From positions 1-64,000 of the forward strand of contig NZ_JABFOE010000005.1 of the NCBI RefSeq assembly GCF_013116745.1: a stretch of 64,000 nt of DNA, in the 5' to 3' direction. The stretch is from Arthrobacter sp. 260 (lineage in GTDB: Bacteria > Actinomycetota > Actinomycetes > Actinomycetales > Micrococcaceae). The notes under the pieces were generated by a model. That model made no database searches. It saw only the letters and a list, made by a program, of their open reading frames with translations, and was not told the DNA's origin. Both the position numbers and the translations under genes were made by a program. Position 1 is the stretch's first letter. Each line of letters begins with the position of its first letter. Below, in pieces: positions 7,462 to 14,312 of the stretch.

Positions 7462-7499
7462 GGCCCGCCTCCCCCCTTCGGATCGGGGCGAGGCGGGCC
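7462..7499 (-). terminator. Hairpin after the amidase operon
   Basis: The arms ggcccgcctc (7462-7471) and gaggcgggcc (7490-7499) pair perfectly over 10 bp around an 18-base loop that can pair further. It lies 16 bases after the amidase stop and before the kinase start. There is no T-run, so termination strength is uncertain. Confidence 0.6.
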
Positions 7500-7514: not shown

Positions 7515-8927
7515 TCAGAGGGTTGGCGCCTGCTTCGCGTAACCAGTGGCCTGCTCGAACCCGTACGCCACCTGCAAGAGGTCAACATCCCTTCCGTGGG
7601 GCATCGTTAGCTGCAGACCAACCGGGAGCCCGGTGGTGCTGAAACCGGCGGGGACCGAGACCGCGGGAAGTCCCGTCGCCGAGATGAGGCAGGCGGACCG
7701 CATCCAGTCGAGGTAGGTTTCACACTCGACGCCCTCAACCGCTGTGGGGTAGCGCAGCGTGGCGTCGAAGGGCAACACCTGGGCCACCGGGCTGACGAAG
7801 ACATCGAACCTTGTGAAGAAGTCGGCCACCTTCCCGGCCAACCGGGTCCGGGCAAGCGCGGCATCGACCAGATCGCGGCCGGTCAACGCCTTGCCCTGTT
7901 CCACGTTCCACTGCACCTCGGGTTTGATTACCTCCCCGTGCTTCTCAAGGAGCGTCCCATAGGCCAGGAGGAAATCGAACGCCCGTGTGATGCCGAAGAC
8001 CTGATCAGCGTCCCGCAGGTCGGGCGCCGCCTCCTCGACGGTCGCGCCCAGGTCCACGAAGACCTGCAGCTGGGATTCCAGAACGCGCAGCACCTCTTTC
8101 TCCACGGGGACCCCCAACCCAAAGTCGGGCGACCAGCCGATCCTCAGGCCGGTGAGATCCCTGTGCAACGGGTCGCTGAACCGCTTGCTGCCCAGCGGAT
8201 AGGGGTAGGGAACATCAGGATGCGCGCCGGCGACCGCGCTCATCCCCAAGGCGATATCCTCGACGTCGCGGGCCATCAGCCCGGTCCGCCCCAGCCAGGC
8301 CCACGCGTTGCGGGTGGGCGACATCGGCAGGACGCCCACTGACGGCCTGAAGCCCACAATGTTGCAGAACGAAGCCGGGATGCGCAGCGACCCGCCCATG
8401 TCGCTGCCGTCGCTCAGCGGCTGGATGCGGGCCGCTATCGCGGCGGCGGCTCCCCCGCTGCTCCCTCCGGCGCTCACAGTGGCGTCATATGGGTTGGTGG
8501 TGGTCCCGAAGATCTCGTTGAACGTGTGCGATCCGGCGGCGAACTCCGGTACGTTCGTCTTCCCGGTGGTCACCACCCCGGCAGTCTTCAGCCGGCCGAT
8601 CAGCAGGTCGTCGAACGTCGGCACATGGTCCTTGAAGATCACTGACCCCTGGGTGGTTCGCATCCCCTTGGTGTTGTTGGTGTCCTTGTGGGTCATCGGC
8701 AGGCCGTGCAGTGGTGGCAGGTCGACCCCCGACGCCGTCAGCTCATCAGCTGCCGCGGCCAGCCGCTGTGCGCCGTCCCGGTCCTGGGTGATGACCGCAT
8801 TGATCTTCGCGTTTACCGCGTCGATCCGGGCGAAGTGCGCCTCGAGCGCCTCCCGGGCAGAGATGTCACGACGGCGGATCGCGCCGGTGAGCGCCGTCGC
8901 CGAGAGATCCATGGGTCCGCCGGTCAT
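7515..8927 (-). CDS. Amidase signature family enzyme
   Basis: A 470-residue cytosolic hydrolase of the amidase-signature superfamily, which cleaves carboxamide bonds through a Ser-cisSer-Lys triad. The triad is visible: Lys81 in LPMTHKDT, the serines of SAGGSSGGAAAA near 152-157, and the nucleophile Ser180 in SDMGGSLRIPAS. Length is normal for the family. Its ATG overlaps the stop of the M20 gene by four bases, and it is the last gene of a five-gene operon. Which amide it hydrolyses is unknown; the context suggests an amino-acid amide or an acylated amino acid derivative. Confidence 0.92.
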   Translation of the reverse strand: MTGGPMDLSATALTGAIRRRDISAREALEAHFARIDAVNAKINAVITQDRDGAQRLAAAADELTASGVDLPPLHGLPMTHKDTNNTKGMRTTQGSVIFKDHVPTFDDLLIGRLKTAGVVTTGKTNVPEFAAGSHTFNEIFGTTTNPYDATVSAGGSSGGAAAAIAARIQPLSDGSDMGGSLRIPASFCNIVGFRPSVGVLPMSPTRNAWAWLGRTGLMARDVEDIALGMSAVAGAHPDVPYPYPLGSKRFSDPLHRDLTGLRIGWSPDFGLGVPVEKEVLRVLESQLQVFVDLGATVEEAAPDLRDADQVFGITRAFDFLLAYGTLLEKHGEVIKPEVQWNVEQGKALTGRDLVDAALARTRLAGKVADFFTRFDVFVSPVAQVLPFDATLRYPTAVEGVECETYLDWMRSACLISATGLPAVSVPAGFSTTGLPVGLQLTMPHGRDVDLLQVAYGFEQATGYAKQAPTL

Positions 8928-10153
8928 CGCGCAACTTTCGAGAGGATGGCTGTCATGGCGGCACGGACGCCGGTGGTGAGGGTCGGTTCGATGTCGGGGG
9001 CGAAGTGCGGCGAGTGGTTGCCGGGAAGGGGCGTGTCGGCGTCGAGCCGTTCCTGGTTGTAGGCGCCGAACATCCAGTACACGGACGGCACCCCGATGGC
9101 CGTCGCGAACAAGCCGAAGTCCTCGCTGCCCATGACCGGCGGAACCTCGTTGACTGAGTCCTCGCCCAGCGTCAGGTGGAACTCTTTGATCAGCGCATCA
9201 GTGGTGTCGGGGTCGTTGTAGCACTCCGGGAAGCTGGAGATTTCCTCGATCGACGGCGCCGGGGCGCCGGATGCGTCGGCCTCCGCCTTGATGATGCGGC
9301 GGAGGGAATCAAGCACCCGCTCCCGCACCTCGGGGTCGAAGGTGCGCACGTTGACCGAGAACTCGGCGGTGTCAGGGATGATGTTCTCCTTCAGCCCGGC
9401 GTGGAAGGTGCCGATCGTGACGACCGCCGACTTCATCGGGTGCACTTCCCGGGCGACGATCGTCTGGATCCGCACCACCATGTGGGCGCCGAGCACGATC
9501 GGGTCGATCGACTGATCCGGCTGGGACCCGTGCGCCTGCCGGCCCTGGACGGTGATTTTCCAGGAGTCCGCCATGGCCATCGCGGTGCCGCGGCTGATGT
9601 TCACCGTCCCGGCGAGGCCCGGCCAGACGTGCTGGCCGTAGATCACCTCGGGTTTAGGTGCCTTGTCCCAGATTCCGTCCTCCACCATGGCTTTGGCCCC
9701 GGCGGCTGTTTCCTCACCCGGCTGGAAGATGAACACCACAGTGCCCGACCAGGTCTGAAGCCCCTCGCTGAGCAGCCTCGCCGCCGTCAGTGCTGCGGTG
9801 ATGTGCGTGTCATGACCGCACCCGTGCATCACCGGCACCTCGGTCCCGTCGGCGAGGTGCCCCCTCGCCTGGCTGGCGTAGTCAAGGCCGGTGTCCTCCT
9901 GCATGGGCAGGCCATCAGTATCGGCGCGGAAGCCGACCACCGGGCCTTCACCATTGCGGAGGACTCCGACGACGCCGGTTCCGCCGCACAGGTACGCTTC
10001 GATTCCCAGGTCGGTGAGTGCCTTCAGGATGAAATCGGCGGTCTGGGTTTCCTGCATGGACAGTTCCGGGTGGGCGTGCAGATGACGGTACAGCTCGTGC
10101 ATGGCCGTGCGGTGATCGGCGGACAGTTCGAGCGAGGTGGTCTCGGTGGTCAT
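8924..10153 (-). CDS. M20 family amidohydrolase (N-acyl amino acid / hippurate hydrolase type)
   Basis: A 409-residue metal-dependent hydrolase of the M20D type, related to hippurate and N-acyl-L-amino acid amidohydrolases. Metal-binding features are VMHGCGHDTH (Cys112, His114), FQPGEE (Glu147/148), GQHVWP and GSEDFG near the C-terminus. The lid domain begins near the SWKITVQGRQAHGSQP segment. Such enzymes release a free amino acid from an N-acyl conjugate. It lies between the putative transporter genes and the amidase gene (four-base overlap), so its product should act on the imported substrate. Confidence 0.93.
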   Translation of the reverse strand: MTTETTSLELSADHRTAMHELYRHLHAHPELSMQETQTADFILKALTDLGIEAYLCGGTGVVGVLRNGEGPVVGFRADTDGLPMQEDTGLDYASQARGHLADGTEVPVMHGCGHDTHITAALTAARLLSEGLQTWSGTVVFIFQPGEETAAGAKAMVEDGIWDKAPKPEVIYGQHVWPGLAGTVNISRGTAMAMADSWKITVQGRQAHGSQPDQSIDPIVLGAHMVVRIQTIVAREVHPMKSAVVTIGTFHAGLKENIIPDTAEFSVNVRTFDPEVRERVLDSLRRIIKAEADASGAPAPSIEEISSFPECYNDPDTTDALIKEFHLTLGEDSVNEVPPVMGSEDFGLFATAIGVPSVYWMFGAYNQERLDADTPLPGNHSPHFAPDIEPTLTTGVRAAMTAILSKVAR

Positions 10154-10191
10154 GGGGTTCCTATCGTGGAGGTGGTGGTGAGGACGGCGGA

Positions 10192-10923
10192 CTAGATGCC
10201 GGGGTGTTCCTGGACGGCGGCGGCGTCGGAGTTCCTGGACCGCAGGAACCAGGCGAGCACCGCGGTCAGCAGCACCACGATGCCAGTGGCTGGCTTCGCG
10301 AGGGCGGGAACGGCGGGCACCAGGACAAACAGGACGACGACGGCAACGACGACGGCGATCACCGTCACCCGGGGCTGCTTCATCGTCACGATGAGCTGCA
10401 CCAGGACGGCGCCGATGATGCTCGGGAAGATGTAGAGCCGCGCGACGTCGACAATATCGGTGGGAATGATACTGACCAGCCAGGTGCCAAGCACTCCGAC
10501 GAACAGGAGCATCGAGAAGACATGGACCATAGCGGCCCCACAGATGGCCATCAGAGCCGAGAACTCTCCGCGCTTGGTTCCTGCCTTTGCACCCACTGCG
10601 GCCTGGGCCACCAGGGCTGAGGGAAGCAGCTTGTTGGCGATATTGCCGATCATGAACGCCTGGTACATGGCGGCCGGGCCGAGGACCGGGTAGTAGGTGA
10701 TCGGCTCGACGAACCAGAGGACGAAGAACGCGGCAGCGACGGCGAAGAACGCCGTCCAGATCATCCCGGAGGTGATGCCCAGGTCGGTGAACAGGACCAG
10801 GTAGATGGGGGCGGCAAGGGAGAACACGAGCGCGATGATCATGGTGATGCGTCCCCAGCGGGACGTGGTGCGGTCAAACTGGTCGACGGCGGCGGTCTGT
10901 TCAGCAGTGGCTGTAAAGCTCAT
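10192..10923 (-). CDS. Multi-pass membrane protein, presumed partner of the DUF5058 protein
   Basis: A 243-residue protein with about six predicted helices, a short polar N-terminus and the conserved-looking core PITYYPVLGPAAMYQAFMIG followed by NIANKLLPSALVAQAA. From memory, relatives next to DUF5058 genes are often labelled small-conductance mechanosensitive channel, but nothing here supports an MscS fold. It follows the DUF5058 gene by 28 bases and precedes the M20 gene by 38 bases. I infer that the two membrane proteins form one transporter for the substrate of the hydrolases. Confidence 0.75.
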   Translation of the reverse strand: MSFTATAEQTAAVDQFDRTTSRWGRITMIIALVFSLAAPIYLVLFTDLGITSGMIWTAFFAVAAAFFVLWFVEPITYYPVLGPAAMYQAFMIGNIANKLLPSALVAQAAVGAKAGTKRGEFSALMAICGAAMVHVFSMLLFVGVLGTWLVSIIPTDIVDVARLYIFPSIIGAVLVQLIVTMKQPRVTVIAVVVAVVVLFVLVPAVPALAKPATGIVVLLTAVLAWFLRSRNSDAAAVQEHPGI

Positions 10924-10951
10924 GGCATGTTCCTTTCGTGGAGGGTGCTGC

Positions 10952-11707
10952 TCAGGCCGCTGCGGGAGCGAGGCCGGCGGTGTGGGCGAAATAGGCGACC
11001 GCGAGGCCCACCAGGATGGCGATGCCGAGGCCCCATTCCCGGAGCCAGGCGGCGGACAGCGTCTTGGCGAGGAAGAGGCAGATACCCATCACCAGGGCCG
11101 ACACGATCACGGTGATGATGTGCACCGGGGTTTTCCCGAGCTCGGCGATGCCCAGGCTGGCGAAGGCACCGATGAGCGCGGCGGCGGGCACGATGGCCAT
11201 CAGTGCCGGGTTGACATGCCGCAGTTTGGAGTCTCCCCGCTTCAGCAGCGGGGTGAGGGCGAGGGTGGCGATCATCCACATGGCGCCGGACATGCTCATG
11301 GCCATGAAAGCGACAACGAAGACCGCCTGCGTGTAGTCCGGACCGCCCAGCGTGGCATCCATGGTGGCCGCGGCGAGCGATGCCGACGCCGACTCGGTGG
11401 CAGCGGATCCCACCAGGCCGATCCGGACCAGTACTGCAGGGGTTCCGAACAGGGTCAGGAGCGCGACGCTGACCAGGACCACCGCGAGGGAGGGTCCGAT
11501 CGCTGCCACGGCGCCAGCCCTGAACGAGGTCTTCAGCTCGGCCTGCGAGATGTTGGCCGAGGGACCAGCCTTCTGGGCTGCGCGCATGTAGATCACTGAT
11601 TGAAGGATGATCGCTCCGAAAACACCGATCGCCAGGATCCACAGGATGGGAATGTTGGCGATGGCGAGGATATCGGTGGATCCTCCGGGCATGACTGCGG
11701 TTTTCAT
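10952..11707 (-). CDS. DUF5058 family membrane protein
   Basis: A 251-residue integral membrane protein with about six helices. The N-terminus matches DUF5058 as I recall it: ILAIANIPILWILAIG, a basic amphipathic stretch (AELKTSFRAGAVAAIGPSLA), then an Ala/Ser-rich helix (GSAATESASASLAAA). No ATP-binding site or porter signature is visible and the family has no characterised function. It sits 45 bases after the carbamoylase-type hydrolase and immediately before a second membrane protein, suggesting a two-subunit secondary transporter. Confidence 0.82.
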   Translation of the reverse strand: MKTAVMPGGSTDILAIANIPILWILAIGVFGAIILQSVIYMRAAQKAGPSANISQAELKTSFRAGAVAAIGPSLAVVLVSVALLTLFGTPAVLVRIGLVGSAATESASASLAAATMDATLGGPDYTQAVFVVAFMAMSMSGAMWMIATLALTPLLKRGDSKLRHVNPALMAIVPAAALIGAFASLGIAELGKTPVHIITVIVSALVMGICLFLAKTLSAAWLREWGLGIAILVGLAVAYFAHTAGLAPAAA

Positions 11708-11752
11708 GACTGCTCCAGGGGGAAAGGGGGACGGATCATTGGCGGGGATGGT

Positions 11753-13024
11753 CTAGGAATGGCCGGTGAGTGTTGTCTGGTCGAGGGCGATGAGTGTTTG
11801 GGTCAGGGCTGTCACACCCGTCGCGACATCGGCGAAGTCTGTCCATTCCTCGGGACAGTGGCTCTTGCCGGCTTTGGAGGGGATGAAGATCATGCCCATC
11901 GGCGCGAGGGTCGCCATGTGGACTGCGTCGTGAGTGGCGCCGCTGGGAACCGGCATCCAGGGGACGCCCAGGGTGTCGGCGACCCGCGCTGCGGTGTCGT
12001 GGACACCCGGGTGGGTGTGGACCACCTCGTTGTCAGTTGACCAGGTGAAGTCGACGTCCACACCGTGGTGGCTGGCCTGGCCGAGAATTTCCTGGGCGAG
12101 GCGGCCCTTCACGCCGGAGAGCCAGTCGGCGTCGACGCTTCGCACCTCGCTGGTCATCCTGACCAGTGAGGGAACCACGTTGGGTGAGCGGGACTCGGAT
12201 TCGAGGCGGGTGGTGGTGGCTACGCCGTGGGTGGGCGCTCCGCATCCTTCCCGTCGGACGGCAAGGACCGCTTCGGCAGCGGCAACCATGGCGTCGGCGC
12301 GGTCGGTCATCGGCCTGGTCCCGGCGTGGTCGGGTGAACCGGTGAAGACCGCGAGGAGCCGCTGGATTCCCGCGATGCCCGTCACTATCCCGAGGGGAAG
12401 CCCACGCTGCTCGAGGGTGGGGCCCTGTTCGATGTGCAGTTCGAGGAACGCGTGCAATCCGGTCCTGCGGGCCCAGTGGGAGTTCAGGGTGGCCGCCGGG
12501 TCGAGACCGAAGCGTGAATAGCTTTCACCGAGGGTGACTCCCCGGTAGTCGGTACGGTCCAGGTCCTGGGCGGTCAGCTCGCCGGCCGCAGCCCGGCTGC
12601 CGAGGCAGCTCAGTCCATAGGGGTTGGATTCCTCGCCGAAGAAATCGACCACCAGGAGGTCCCGGGTGAGTGAGGTGCCACCTTCCCGCAGCTGCCGTAC
12701 CGCGTCGAGCGCCCCCAAGACTCCGACAATTCCATCAAACCGGCCGCCGCCGTCGACCGTGTCCGTGTGGGAACCGGTGACGAGAGCGGGGGCATTGGGG
12801 TTGGTTCCGGGAAGCCGGCCCACGATGTTGCCGGCACCATCGGTGTGCACTTCGAGTCCGGCATCTTTCATGCGGTGAACTGTCCACTGCCGGGACTCGC
12901 GGTAGGCCTCGCTGAACACATCGCGGGTCCACCCCGGCCGTGAGGCCTCACGGTAGTCGGAGATCTCGGTAATTCCCGCTCCCAGCCGCTCGGCTGCCTC
13001 GATCGTGTGGCTCGAAGTGTGCAA
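11753..13024 (-). CDS. Zn-dependent hydrolase, N-carbamoyl-L-amino acid hydrolase / allantoate amidohydrolase family
   Basis: A 423-residue M20C-type enzyme related to HyuC and AllC, which remove the carbamoyl group from ureido compounds. Metal and substrate motifs are TGSHTDTVDGGGRFDG, FGEESNPYG, ELHIEQGP, SPDHAGTRPM and the C-terminal PSGATHDAVHMA. I chose TTG at 13024 because GAAAGG lies seven bases upstream; the frame runs on to ATG 13099, but that stretch is made of regulator palindromes. First gene of the operon, facing the LacI-type regulator. Exact substrate (N-carbamoyl amino acid, allantoate or ureidoglycine-like) is not decidable from sequence. Confidence 0.9.
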   Translation of the reverse strand: MHTSSHTIEAAERLGAGITEISDYREASRPGWTRDVFSEAYRESRQWTVHRMKDAGLEVHTDGAGNIVGRLPGTNPNAPALVTGSHTDTVDGGGRFDGIVGVLGALDAVRQLREGGTSLTRDLLVVDFFGEESNPYGLSCLGSRAAAGELTAQDLDRTDYRGVTLGESYSRFGLDPAATLNSHWARRTGLHAFLELHIEQGPTLEQRGLPLGIVTGIAGIQRLLAVFTGSPDHAGTRPMTDRADAMVAAAEAVLAVRREGCGAPTHGVATTTRLESESRSPNVVPSLVRMTSEVRSVDADWLSGVKGRLAQEILGQASHHGVDVDFTWSTDNEVVHTHPGVHDTAARVADTLGVPWMPVPSGATHDAVHMATLAPMGMIFIPSKAGKSHCPEEWTDFADVATGVTALTQTLIALDQTTLTGHS

Positions 13025-13070
13025 AGGAAGGCCTTTCGTCGATCTTGGTCGGTGGAATACGAACTGCTTG

Positions 13071-13094
13071 TGCAATCGTTTGCAAACCGTTGCA
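13071..13094. promoter_or_regulatory. Two overlapping LacI-type operator palindromes
   Basis: tgcaatcgtttgca (13071-13084) and tgcaaaccgttgca (13081-13094) overlap by four bases. Read on the appropriate strand, both fit GCAAACSRTTGC. They lie 47-70 bases upstream of the chosen hydrolase start, where a bound repressor would block the operon promoter. Confidence 0.7.
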
Positions 13095-13215
13095 AACACA
13101 TAACGCTCGTACGAATATGGTCTACATCACACTACTCAGGCCTCGTTACGTCAAGGTTTCGAGGGAATTAACTTCTCGCCCCTGATTCCTTCCGTTGCGC
13201 GTAGGGACAGGTTCG

Positions 13216-13229
13216 CGCAAACCATTGCG
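13216..13229. promoter_or_regulatory. Third copy of the LacI-type operator, upstream of the regulator gene
   Basis: cgcaaaccattgcg matches the core GCAAACCRTTGC of the two sites near the hydrolase gene. It lies 54-67 bases before the proposed regulator start, suggesting autoregulation or repression by looping between the two sites about 140 bases apart. Confidence 0.65.
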
Positions 13230-13283
13230 CTGACGACTGCACGTGGCCGTAGACTGCGCTATAGAAGTGAAAGGGGCAAAGCT

Positions 13284-14312
13284 ATCGCTGATCTGACAGG
13301 CGTTGAGCGCCAGAGACCGGTAACGCTGGCGACCGTTGCCCGGCATGCCCAGGTCCATGTATCAACCGTTTCGCGCGCCCTCAGCGAGGATCCCTCAGGG
13401 GTGGGGTCAGACACCGTCCGTCGGGTCCGGGAGCTGGCAGCGATGCTGGGGTACCACCGCGACGTCGGAGCGGCAGCGCTCCGCACCGGAAGTTCCCGAC
13501 TGATCGGGGTTCTGGTGCCCCGCCTGACCGACCTGGTCCTGGCCACCATCTACGAGAGCATTGACGCCGCGGCGGGCACTGCCGGGTACACCACTGTCGT
13601 CTCCAATACCCTTGATGACCCGGCTCGTCGGCGCGGCCGGCTGGATGCCCTGCTGTCCCGCCGGCTCGATGGCGTGATCATCGGAGACTCGCACATCGGA
13701 GACACCGCTGCCTTCGAGTTGCAGCAGCGAGGTGTGCCGTACGTCCTGGTGATGCGTAAACTCGAGGGCCATCTGTCAGTGACCACCGACGACCACCTCG
13801 GTGGCCGCCTTGCGGCCGAACACCTGCTGTCGCTGGGACACCAACGGGTGGGAGTGATCGCCGGTGACCTCCTGGCCAGCACCGGCTTGCAGCGGACCCA
13901 GGGCTTCCGGACCGCTTTCGAGGCTGCTGGGTACCCGATCGAGGACCACTACGTGGTGAACTCCGGTTTCGGTGCCCGGGCGGGGAGGCTCGCCGGGGAC
14001 CAGCTCATGAGCCTTGAGCACCCGCCGTCGGCAATCTTCGCTGTGGACGACCTGACAGCGGTTGGCGCCATGGGGGCCATTCGCGCCGTCGGGAAACACC
14101 TGCGGGAGGATGTGGCCCTGGTGGGCTACAACGACGTCGATCTGGCCGCCAACCTGCCGGTTCCGTTGACCTCCGTCCGCTCGGCGCTCACCGAGATGGG
14201 AGAGCTCAGCTTCGCCGCGCTGCAACGGCGGATCAATGGTGAGGAGACCGAATCGGTCCTCCTGAAGCCGGTGCTCATCCCCCGCGCAACGACTGTGGAA
14301 CGGTGGGAGTAG
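13284..14312 (+). CDS. LacI family transcriptional regulator with non-canonical ATC start
   Basis: The frame encodes a full LacI regulator. The N-terminal helix-turn-helix reads TLATVARHAQVHVSTVSRAL with hinge GYHRDVGAAAL, followed by a periplasmic-binding-like effector domain (SRLIGVLVPRLTDLVLATI, AIFAVDDLTAVGAM, ALVGYNDVDLA). The first canonical in-frame start is GTG 13401, which would delete the DNA-binding helices, and no ATG, GTG or TTG lies between the upstream stop at 13101 and 13401. ATC at 13284 follows GAAAGGGG by seven bases and would give a normal N-terminus, (M)ADLTGVERQRPV. It should repress the divergent hydrolase operon in response to an operon substrate. Confidence 0.88.
   Translation: MADLTGVERQRPVTLATVARHAQVHVSTVSRALSEDPSGVGSDTVRRVRELAAMLGYHRDVGAAALRTGSSRLIGVLVPRLTDLVLATIYESIDAAAGTAGYTTVVSNTLDDPARRRGRLDALLSRRLDGVIIGDSHIGDTAAFELQQRGVPYVLVMRKLEGHLSVTTDDHLGGRLAAEHLLSLGHQRVGVIAGDLLASTGLQRTQGFRTAFEAAGYPIEDHYVVNSGFGARAGRLAGDQLMSLEHPPSAIFAVDDLTAVGAMGAIRAVGKHLREDVALVGYNDVDLAANLPVPLTSVRSALTEMGELSFAALQRRINGEETESVLLKPVLIPRATTVERWE

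Follow-up and report, generated by a model that had tools for sequence, protein, structure and literature searches.

The locus analysed here, which lies in a 64,000-nucleotide stretch of DNA from the soil bacterium Arthrobacter sp. 260 (hereafter the window), is best explained as a unit for the uptake and hydrolysis of N-acylated amino acids, in which the DUF5058 protein and a second membrane protein (MP2) would import the substrate and an M20 aminoacylase would split it. We hold this reading to be somewhat probable: from the computed gene content, the strict pairing of the two membrane proteins, the catalytic and carboxylate-binding residues, the operators, the linkage with glycine genes and the charge pattern, we infer transport, its direction, the substrate and the inducer. 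On our best reading, at least some members of the family would take N-acylglycines as substrates.

In the proposed mechanism, DUF5058 and MP2 would form one transporter from two subunits of near-equal size, each with six transmembrane (TM) segments and opposite in orientation, that imports an amino acid acylated on its nitrogen and free at its carboxylate. In the cytosol, the M20 aminoacylase would then convert the conjugate into a carboxylic acid and an amino acid. The amino acid released is probably glycine in haloarchaea, Rhodococcus and several Micrococcales lineages; it would pass to the glycine cleavage system, with an onward step by a serine dehydratase likely in one genome. In the Arthrobacter-type lineage of the window, the core would have gained an amidase and a carbamoylase, with its range probably widened to N-carbamoyl and amide derivatives, under the control of a LacI-type repressor that substrate or product would release.

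The operon and its regulator

The operon is a minus-strand run of five genes, separated by 45, 28 and 38 bases and then overlapping by 4 bases, in the order carbamoylase-type hydrolase, DUF5058, MP2, M20 amidohydrolase and amidase; a divergent LacI-type regulator lies on the plus strand. The features are as follows:

7462..7499, minus strand: hairpin 3' of the operon, without a T-run (folding energy)
7515..8927, minus strand: amidase-signature hydrolase, encoded last in the operon (PF01425, 319 bits)
8924..10153, minus strand: M20 aminoacylase (M20AH), a relative of N-alpha-acyl-glutamine aminoacylase (TIGR01891, 287 bits)
10192..10923, minus strand: MP2, second membrane subunit, 243 aa (six predicted TM segments, N-in/C-in)
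10952..11707, minus strand: DUF5058 membrane subunit, 251 aa (PF16481; six predicted TM segments, N-out/C-out)
11753..13024, minus strand: N-carbamoyl amino acid/allantoate-type hydrolase (HyuC; TIGR01879; start inferred)
13070..13100, no strand: two overlapping predicted LacI-type operators (GCAANNNNTTGC at 13072 and 13082; sequence match)
13215..13232, no strand: third predicted LacI-type operator (GCAANNNNTTGC at 13217; sequence match)
13284..14312, plus strand: LacI-type regulator (PF00356, PF13377; start region compared)

Gene families, spacing and operators all agree with the five-gene operon facing a LacI-type regulator that the original prediction had described. The motif GCAANNNNTTGC occurs three times in the window, and all 16 related loci with the same LacI gene have one or two copies in the corresponding gap. 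The palindromes noticed earlier at the regulator are conserved in relatives as predicted operators, and by this measure the operon is LacI-regulated. Since the open frame of the carbamoylase reaches 13099, where a start would overlap the operator, the real start probably lies lower, at a TTG at 13024 according to our reading of the sequence. Likewise, the LacI gene has to start before the GTG at 13401, because its HTH domain begins at about 13323, and the start codon is apparently an ATC at 13284. The hairpin at which the operon was said to end is real (an 87-nt stretch, -50.4 kcal/mol, z -3.8), but its role as an intrinsic terminator is not supported, as it has no T-run and was not among the matches of a consensus terminator scan. 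The operon DNA had no near match in a plasmid collection.

The DUF5058–MP2 pair

DUF5058 reaches 197.3 bits against PF16481 (Pfam gathering score: 28.2), its sole Pfam match at E 0.001, while MP2 matched no Pfam or NCBIfam family (Pfam E up to 10). Among the 396 genomes of the order, MP2 was present in 42, which are exactly those with DUF5058 above the cut-off, and the two genes were adjacent and on the same strand in 45 of 45 copies. DUF5058 and MP2 are a strict pair, and this adjacency upholds the earlier claim that they belong together. Taxonomically, DUF5058 and its partner family were seen in Actinobacteria, haloarchaea and Proteobacteria, and few genomes of a phylum sample have them (3 of 396 above the cut-off). 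DUF5058 also matched an uncharacterised PHROG family, but this match was discarded, as the phage collection contained no supporting record.

The two proteins are close in length and in TM count (see the list above), and Lys and Arg fall on opposite loop sets in all rows (106/106 for DUF5058 and for MP2). DUF5058 and MP2 are of like size and, as predicted from charge and hydropathy, inserted in opposite orientations. This suggests that the transporter has a split inverted topology; if this holds, it would be a natural transporter built from two separately encoded inverted halves. The proposal that the two proteins together form a transporter is a sound deduction, in which transport itself stays putative. 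Sequence homology between the two subunits was rejected, both by profile comparison (probabilities of 0.8% and 0.5%) and by profile alignment (a score of 17.9, as compared with 17.5 +/- 2.0 when 60 window-shuffled profiles were used and 19.7 when the profile was reversed). Modelled singly with AlphaFold, the subunits gave poor structures (pLDDT: 67.3 and 66.9), too weak for a comparison of the two folds, and with these poor models Foldseek returned nothing at E <= 0.001 and matched no solved fold; searches by sequence for solved relatives of either protein gave none, save one chance match at E 6.8. A tentative extension, which we regard as possible rather than probable, is that the pair is a split elevator-type transporter, to which DUF5058 and MP2 contribute one inverted half each, with a shared site for conjugates of the N-acylglycine type and one conserved re-entrant hairpin per subunit (predicted at about 88–105 in DUF5058, entering from the outside, and at about 79–107 in MP2, from the inside). 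If true, this would be an archaeal and bacterial transporter family so far without an assigned function.

The M20 aminoacylase and the link to glycine

The neighbourhood of the pair was studied in 33 first loci (window included), 80 wider loci and 20 further loci; the last set overlaps the 80 (the rows of at least L136, L138 and L142 are the same as those of L050, L085 and L105), and the glycine-gene loci L125, L131 and L133 are not among these duplicates. A co-occurrence check set beforehand found M20 in 74 and an amidase in 54 of the 80 wider loci, so that the association of DUF5058 with both holds. The six wider loci in which M20AH was not found are L042 and L112, which end too early, L108, where a remnant is left, and L094, L097 and L113, which are without the gene. 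It was present in 32 of the 33 first loci, one of these being the window itself (the copy of L002 is only 30% identical), and was not found in four of the 20 further loci (L126, L133, L139, L140); divergent M20 proteins adjoin the pair in L133 and L139. The sole miss in the first set, L004, rested on a DUF5058 below the cut-off. Beyond these families, a census of 71 neighbouring proteins, chosen from 206 non-redundant candidates, yielded mostly scattered families, with MFS transporters in 7.

M20AH scores 287 bits against TIGR01891 (curated cut-off: 153.75), a broad subfamily of amidohydrolases that includes hippurate hydrolases, and is identical at 162 of 376 aligned positions (43%) to the Corynebacterium striatum N-acyl-glutamine aminoacylase (PDB 6slf). 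The window enzyme conserves C112, H114, E147, E148, H175, H380, N257 and R270, and the 6slf residues C105, E140, E141, H168, H370, N251 and R264 are invariant across all 80 sequences compared, whereas H107 is kept in 79. Using the functional roles given for 6slf in PMC7209930, the zinc ligands and carboxylate binders (C112, H114, E148, H175, H380, N257, R270) are, by alignment, all identical in the window. In contrast, the glutamine side-chain pocket is not retained: the glutamine-binding D301 of 6slf corresponds to S306 and N191 to S197 in the window, while the position matching D301 is Tyr in 46 of the 72 actinobacterial members. Since the window has Ser where most members have Tyr, the amino acid released by its enzyme may differ. 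From this Tyr/Ser difference, L125-type enzymes would be predicted to favour glycine, and the window enzyme to have a different or broader preference.

The wider context, unseen by the original prediction, points to glycine as a product. Glycine cleavage genes lie within about 10 kb of the module in 5 of the 6 haloarchaeal plasmid loci, in L072, L118 and L082 of the 80 wider loci and in L125, L131 and L133 of the 20 further ones. No such genes were detected close to it in the other 77 wider loci, all 16 LacI-type loci included, and gcvP lies on another contig in the genome of the window. L125 has a PF03458 Gly_transporter gene and an AsnC regulator, then DUF5058-MP2-M20-GcvP-GcvT-GcvH-serine dehydratase on the same strand. 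With a single gcvP copy in 18 of 20 genomes, simple arithmetic puts the chance of such proximity at about 0.6% per locus. Moreover, the glycine label needs 7 changes over all 106 rows of a DUF5058+MP2 tree (2 in the group table, which leaves out 57 unlabelled rows), which argues against the linkage being one inherited accident, within the limits of a quick tree that has several long branches and of a count that does not separate gain from loss.

Genes of the TRIC/UPF0126 type, two names that we take to designate the same family, are found nearby in L037, L041, L122 and L123, and as PF03458 in L125. These genes share the setting of the module at some glycine-linked loci, but each is a separate gene beside the pair, and neither DUF5058 nor MP2 matches PF03458. 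PMC12173739 reports an important role of the TRIC-type family in the use of glycine by 11 bacteria. Growth of the window strain on the benzoyl moiety of hippurate is unsupported, as neither benzoate 1,2-dioxygenase nor actinobacterial catechol 1,2-dioxygenase was detectable in its genome.

Alternative readings and known systems

The link to glycine genes would fit equally well if DUF5058-MP2 moved the product, i.e., glycine or another free amino acid, as an exporter or an importer, with the M20 substrate entering otherwise, and the five loci with a TRIC/UPF0126-type gene nearby also speak for this. We nevertheless consider it unlikely, as M20AH is by far the commoner companion of the pair (74/80 vs 3/80 for glycine cleavage genes), and such a carrier would be redundant where a glycine-transporter-type gene already adjoins the pair. 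More improbable is an N-carbamoyl-centred pathway of hydantoin or purine type, towards which the original prediction leaned, with the carbamoylase as the key enzyme and the others processing by-products. The first gene of the operon is a carbamoylase (TIGR01879 hydantoinase/carbamoylase: 316 bits, curated cut-off 204), of which the best NCBIfam match is NF058540 (ErtE, N-carbamyl-L-glutamate amidohydrolase; 487.9 bits, below the cut-off of 520), and a different subfamily occurs in 4 Cryobacterium loci. However, beyond these 4, a carbamoylase is present in just 16 of the 80 loci, and none was detected in four haloarchaeal loci (L036, L037, L040 and L041) or in Paracoccus L039. It is an occasional addition rather than the core member that had been supposed, which makes a pathway centred on it unlikely for the family.

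The amidase, a frequent addition to the core, scores 319 bits against PF01425 and has Ser-Ser-Lys residues at about K81, S156/S157 and S180, presumably the catalytic triad positions. Slightly less probable again than the N-carbamoyl pathway is that the pair transports the substrates of this enzyme (amides, malonamate-like acids), M20 being accessory and the acid going, in a second arrangement, to a type III CoA-transferase and to a carboxyltransferase in which AccD and AccA are fused. This would account for L094, L097, L113 and L126, which keep the pair and the amidase without M20AH, and for the 14 of 80 loci, plus L127 and L130 of the 20, that have both the CoA-transferase and the carboxyltransferase, yet an amidase went undetected in 26 of the 80 loci, and M20 is present with no amidase found in the same four haloarchaeal loci and L039. 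That the three hydrolases act as one catabolic unit is plausible in the lineage of the window, but only there.

Should the uptake and hydrolysis of N-acylated amino acids be confirmed as the role of the module, DUF5058 and its unnamed partner family would gain a function, and bacteria a concrete candidate for the missing uptake step of N-acyl amino acids, e.g., glycine conjugates. The reviews PMC7209930 and PMC12609316 state that it is not known which importer takes up the odour precursors that the related C. striatum enzyme cleaves. A literature search on DUF5058 found no paper. One on the transport of hippurate, N-acylglycines or N-acyl amino acids found work on liver, and in broader searches no such bacterial transporter appeared in the titles and abstract openings. 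Among the closest known parallels is abgA-abgB-abgT of E. coli, which ensures the uptake of p-aminobenzoyl-glutamate and its hydrolysis by M20 enzymes. As in that system, an M20 hydrolase acting on an N-acyl amino acid is paired with a dedicated, here putative, transporter; unlike AbgT, which is a single protein of another Pfam family, DUF5058 matches PF16481 only and MP2 no family. M20AH itself also matches 3io1, an aminobenzoyl-glutamate utilization protein, at 80 bits.

Operon of the window and its control

The locus is best read as a unit that would take up N-acylated amino acids and hydrolyse them; the window would carry an extended, LacI-controlled version of it. The five genes, their order, their spacing (gaps of 45, 28 and 38 bases plus one 4-base overlap) and the divergent regulator are all as the original prediction described:

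Carbamoylase/allantoate-type hydrolase, minus strand (TIGR01879, 316 bits)
DUF5058 membrane protein, minus strand (PF16481, 197 bits)
MP2, the second membrane protein, minus strand (no Pfam family match, even at E 10)
M20 amidohydrolase (with its homologues, M20AH), minus strand (TIGR01891, 287 bits)
Amidase, minus strand (PF01425, 319 bits)
LacI-type regulator, divergent from the five-gene operon

The matching palindromes were also recovered: GCAANNNNTTGC occurs three times in the 64 kb, always between the divergent LacI gene and the operon, and every one of the 16 related loci that carry this LacI gene has it once or twice in the corresponding intergenic gap. It is a strong candidate for the operator of the regulator. 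The hairpin predicted to end the operon does fold well beyond shuffled sequences, but it lacks a T-run and is absent from the terminator-scan list.

In the window's LacI gene, no in-frame ATG, GTG or TTG is found before 13401, and the HTH domain begins at about 13323, ahead of that position. A purine-rich Shine-Dalgarno-like stretch followed by a common ATC-GC(T/A) is seen in the window (13284) and in three related loci (L063, L043 and L051), while the LacI gene of four others (L054, L046, L047 and L044) has an in-frame ATG slightly upstream of the ATC position. ATC is probably the start codon in the window and in the former three loci.

The DUF5058-MP2 pair and its partner genes

DUF5058 occurs sporadically: matches over the Pfam cut-off turned up in 3 genomes of the phylum sample and in 42 of the order sample, each sample comprising 396 genomes. 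Searched across the latter with its own profile, MP2 matches the identical 42 genomes and lies directly downstream, on the same strand, of every DUF5058 copy (45/45). Of 12 DUF5058-bearing plasmid records, 10 gave an MP2 match by tblastn, and in the remaining two MP2 is present in the locus itself (L038 and L123). The core of the unit is the DUF5058-MP2 pair. In L038, from a Vibrio diabolicus plasmid, DUF5058 is interrupted by a stop codon and insertion-sequence genes flank both sides.

A genome scan confirmed 253 relatives, and partner genes were counted in the best 80 of these. MP2 is present in 79, the one exception being a locus that stops short of it; M20AH was found in 74 and the amidase in 54. 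Two queries for AsnC-type regulators matched in 39 and 4 loci; LacI and carbamoylase occur in 16 each, and another carbamoylase subfamily in 4. M20AH is missing from six, two of which end too early (L042, L112) and one of which retains a short remnant (L108); it was looked for and is absent in L094, L097 and L113. In 20 further loci, it was not found in four (L126, L133, L139, L140), with a divergent M20 protein occupying its place in L133 and L139. These counts make the five-gene LacI operon the form that a smaller unit takes in a single lineage. All 80 loci are labelled actinobacterial except L044, labelled Vibrio cholerae strain 35D, whose operon is Arthrobacter-like (DUF5058, MP2, M20 and amidase 77-88% identical to the window); this assembly looks mislabelled or contaminated.

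The other ARRANGEMENTS features a type III CoA-transferase and a fused AccD-AccA-type carboxyltransferase, in 14 of the best 80 loci and in 2 of the 20 further ones (L127, L130). The best models for the former are succinate-glutarate and oxalate CoA-transferases, both below cut-offs, as are the model scores of the latter. These genes suggest that, in such species, the released acid may be activated, then carboxylated or decarboxylated. A recurrent cluster (AsnC regulator, amidase, DUF5058, MP2, M20, type III CoA-transferase, fused carboxyltransferase) was observed in L076, L077, L083, L084, L086, L092, L102, L120 and others.

A putative two-gene transporter

Averaged hydropathy delineates six segments in each membrane protein. 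In DUF5058, Lys+Arg residues are found mostly in loops 1, 3 and 5 (mean 11.7 vs. 2.8); in MP2, they are found mostly in loops 2 and 4 and at both termini (11.2 vs. 1.0). This pattern holds for each protein in 106/106 rows, haloarchaea and Paracoccus included. The positive-inside rule thus predicts opposite orientations for the two proteins. In both, strong conservation marks the end of segment 2 together with loop 2, where the single-chain AlphaFold models also have their lowest certainty (DUF5058 81-100, MP2 80-98). Opposite orientation and conserved stretches fit what would be expected of two subunits forming one transporter with opposed hairpins, and the transporter originally proposed for the pair stands as an inference. 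No homology was found between DUF5058 and MP2, nor any fold match for their single-chain models. As a two-gene transporter, the pair would take up an N-acylated amino acid, which, once imported, would be split by hydrolysis. The unit presumably works like the abgABT system, from which it differs in that the sequences of its putative two-gene transporter show no relation to known families.

Substrate of the M20 enzyme and link to glycine

Among solved structures, M20AH is closest to the N-alpha-acyl-glutamine aminoacylase of Corynebacterium striatum (6slf, 310 bits), with which the window's enzyme shares 162 identical residues over 376 aligned positions; the residues of 6slf that bind zinc, free carboxylate, glutamine side chain and acyl group were taken from PMC7209930. 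When 80 members of the family are aligned, N251, R264 and the zinc ligands are kept in all 80, save for the ligand H107 (79/80), as in the C. striatum enzyme. Unlike the latter, actinobacterial members mostly lack the glutamine contact D301, replaced by Tyr (46/72), Ser (15/72; also in the window) or Thr (8/72), and have Ser for N191 (58/72); haloarchaeal members have Gly and Arg, respectively. Because the former residues are kept but D301 and N191 replaced, M20AH members are very probably aminoacylases for free-carboxylate substrates, not specific for glutamine. The original substrate guess is only partly supported: N-acylated amino acids fit, but a carbamoylase occurs in just 16 (+4) of 80 loci.

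For the family, glycine conjugates are the best-supported substrate class. Five of the six haloarchaeal plasmid loci have glycine cleavage genes about 10 kb or less from genes ordered DUF5058-MP2-amidohydrolase (none were found near the sixth), with serine hydroxymethyltransferase and lipoyl synthase in 3/6 and a TRIC-type gene in 4/6. In Actinobacteria, the link appears in two Rhodococcus and one Arthrobacter subterraneus among the best 80 of 253 loci, and in 3 of the 20 further ones (L125, L131, L133). In L125, DUF5058, MP2, M20AH, GcvP, GcvT, GcvH and serine dehydratase run on a single strand, preceded by an AsnC regulator and a gene of the PF03458 glycine-transporter family, and this gcvP is the genome's only one. 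Since gcvP is single-copy in 18/20 genomes, its chance presence in a neighbourhood of this size is about 0.6% by our own arithmetic. On a quick DUF5058+MP2 tree of 106 rows, some of them present in both sets, seven changes are needed to account for the glycine label across all rows. The link thus recurs, even if most actinobacterial loci do not show it. It was seen in 0/16 LacI-type loci, and the window's own genome has gcvP on a different contig.

A side-chain pocket with Tyr at the D301 position would fit a small amino acid, glycine for example. Among the three glycine-linked Micrococcales loci of the further 20, this position is Tyr in L125 and Asn in L131 (L133 has no M20AH); given this Asn and the haloarchaeal Gly, it is no clean marker of glycine linkage. 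Two genes near the module of L065, one resembling sarcosine oxidase (scores below model cut-offs) and one resembling GcvT (32% identity), are a possible further hint of N-methylglycine or glycine.
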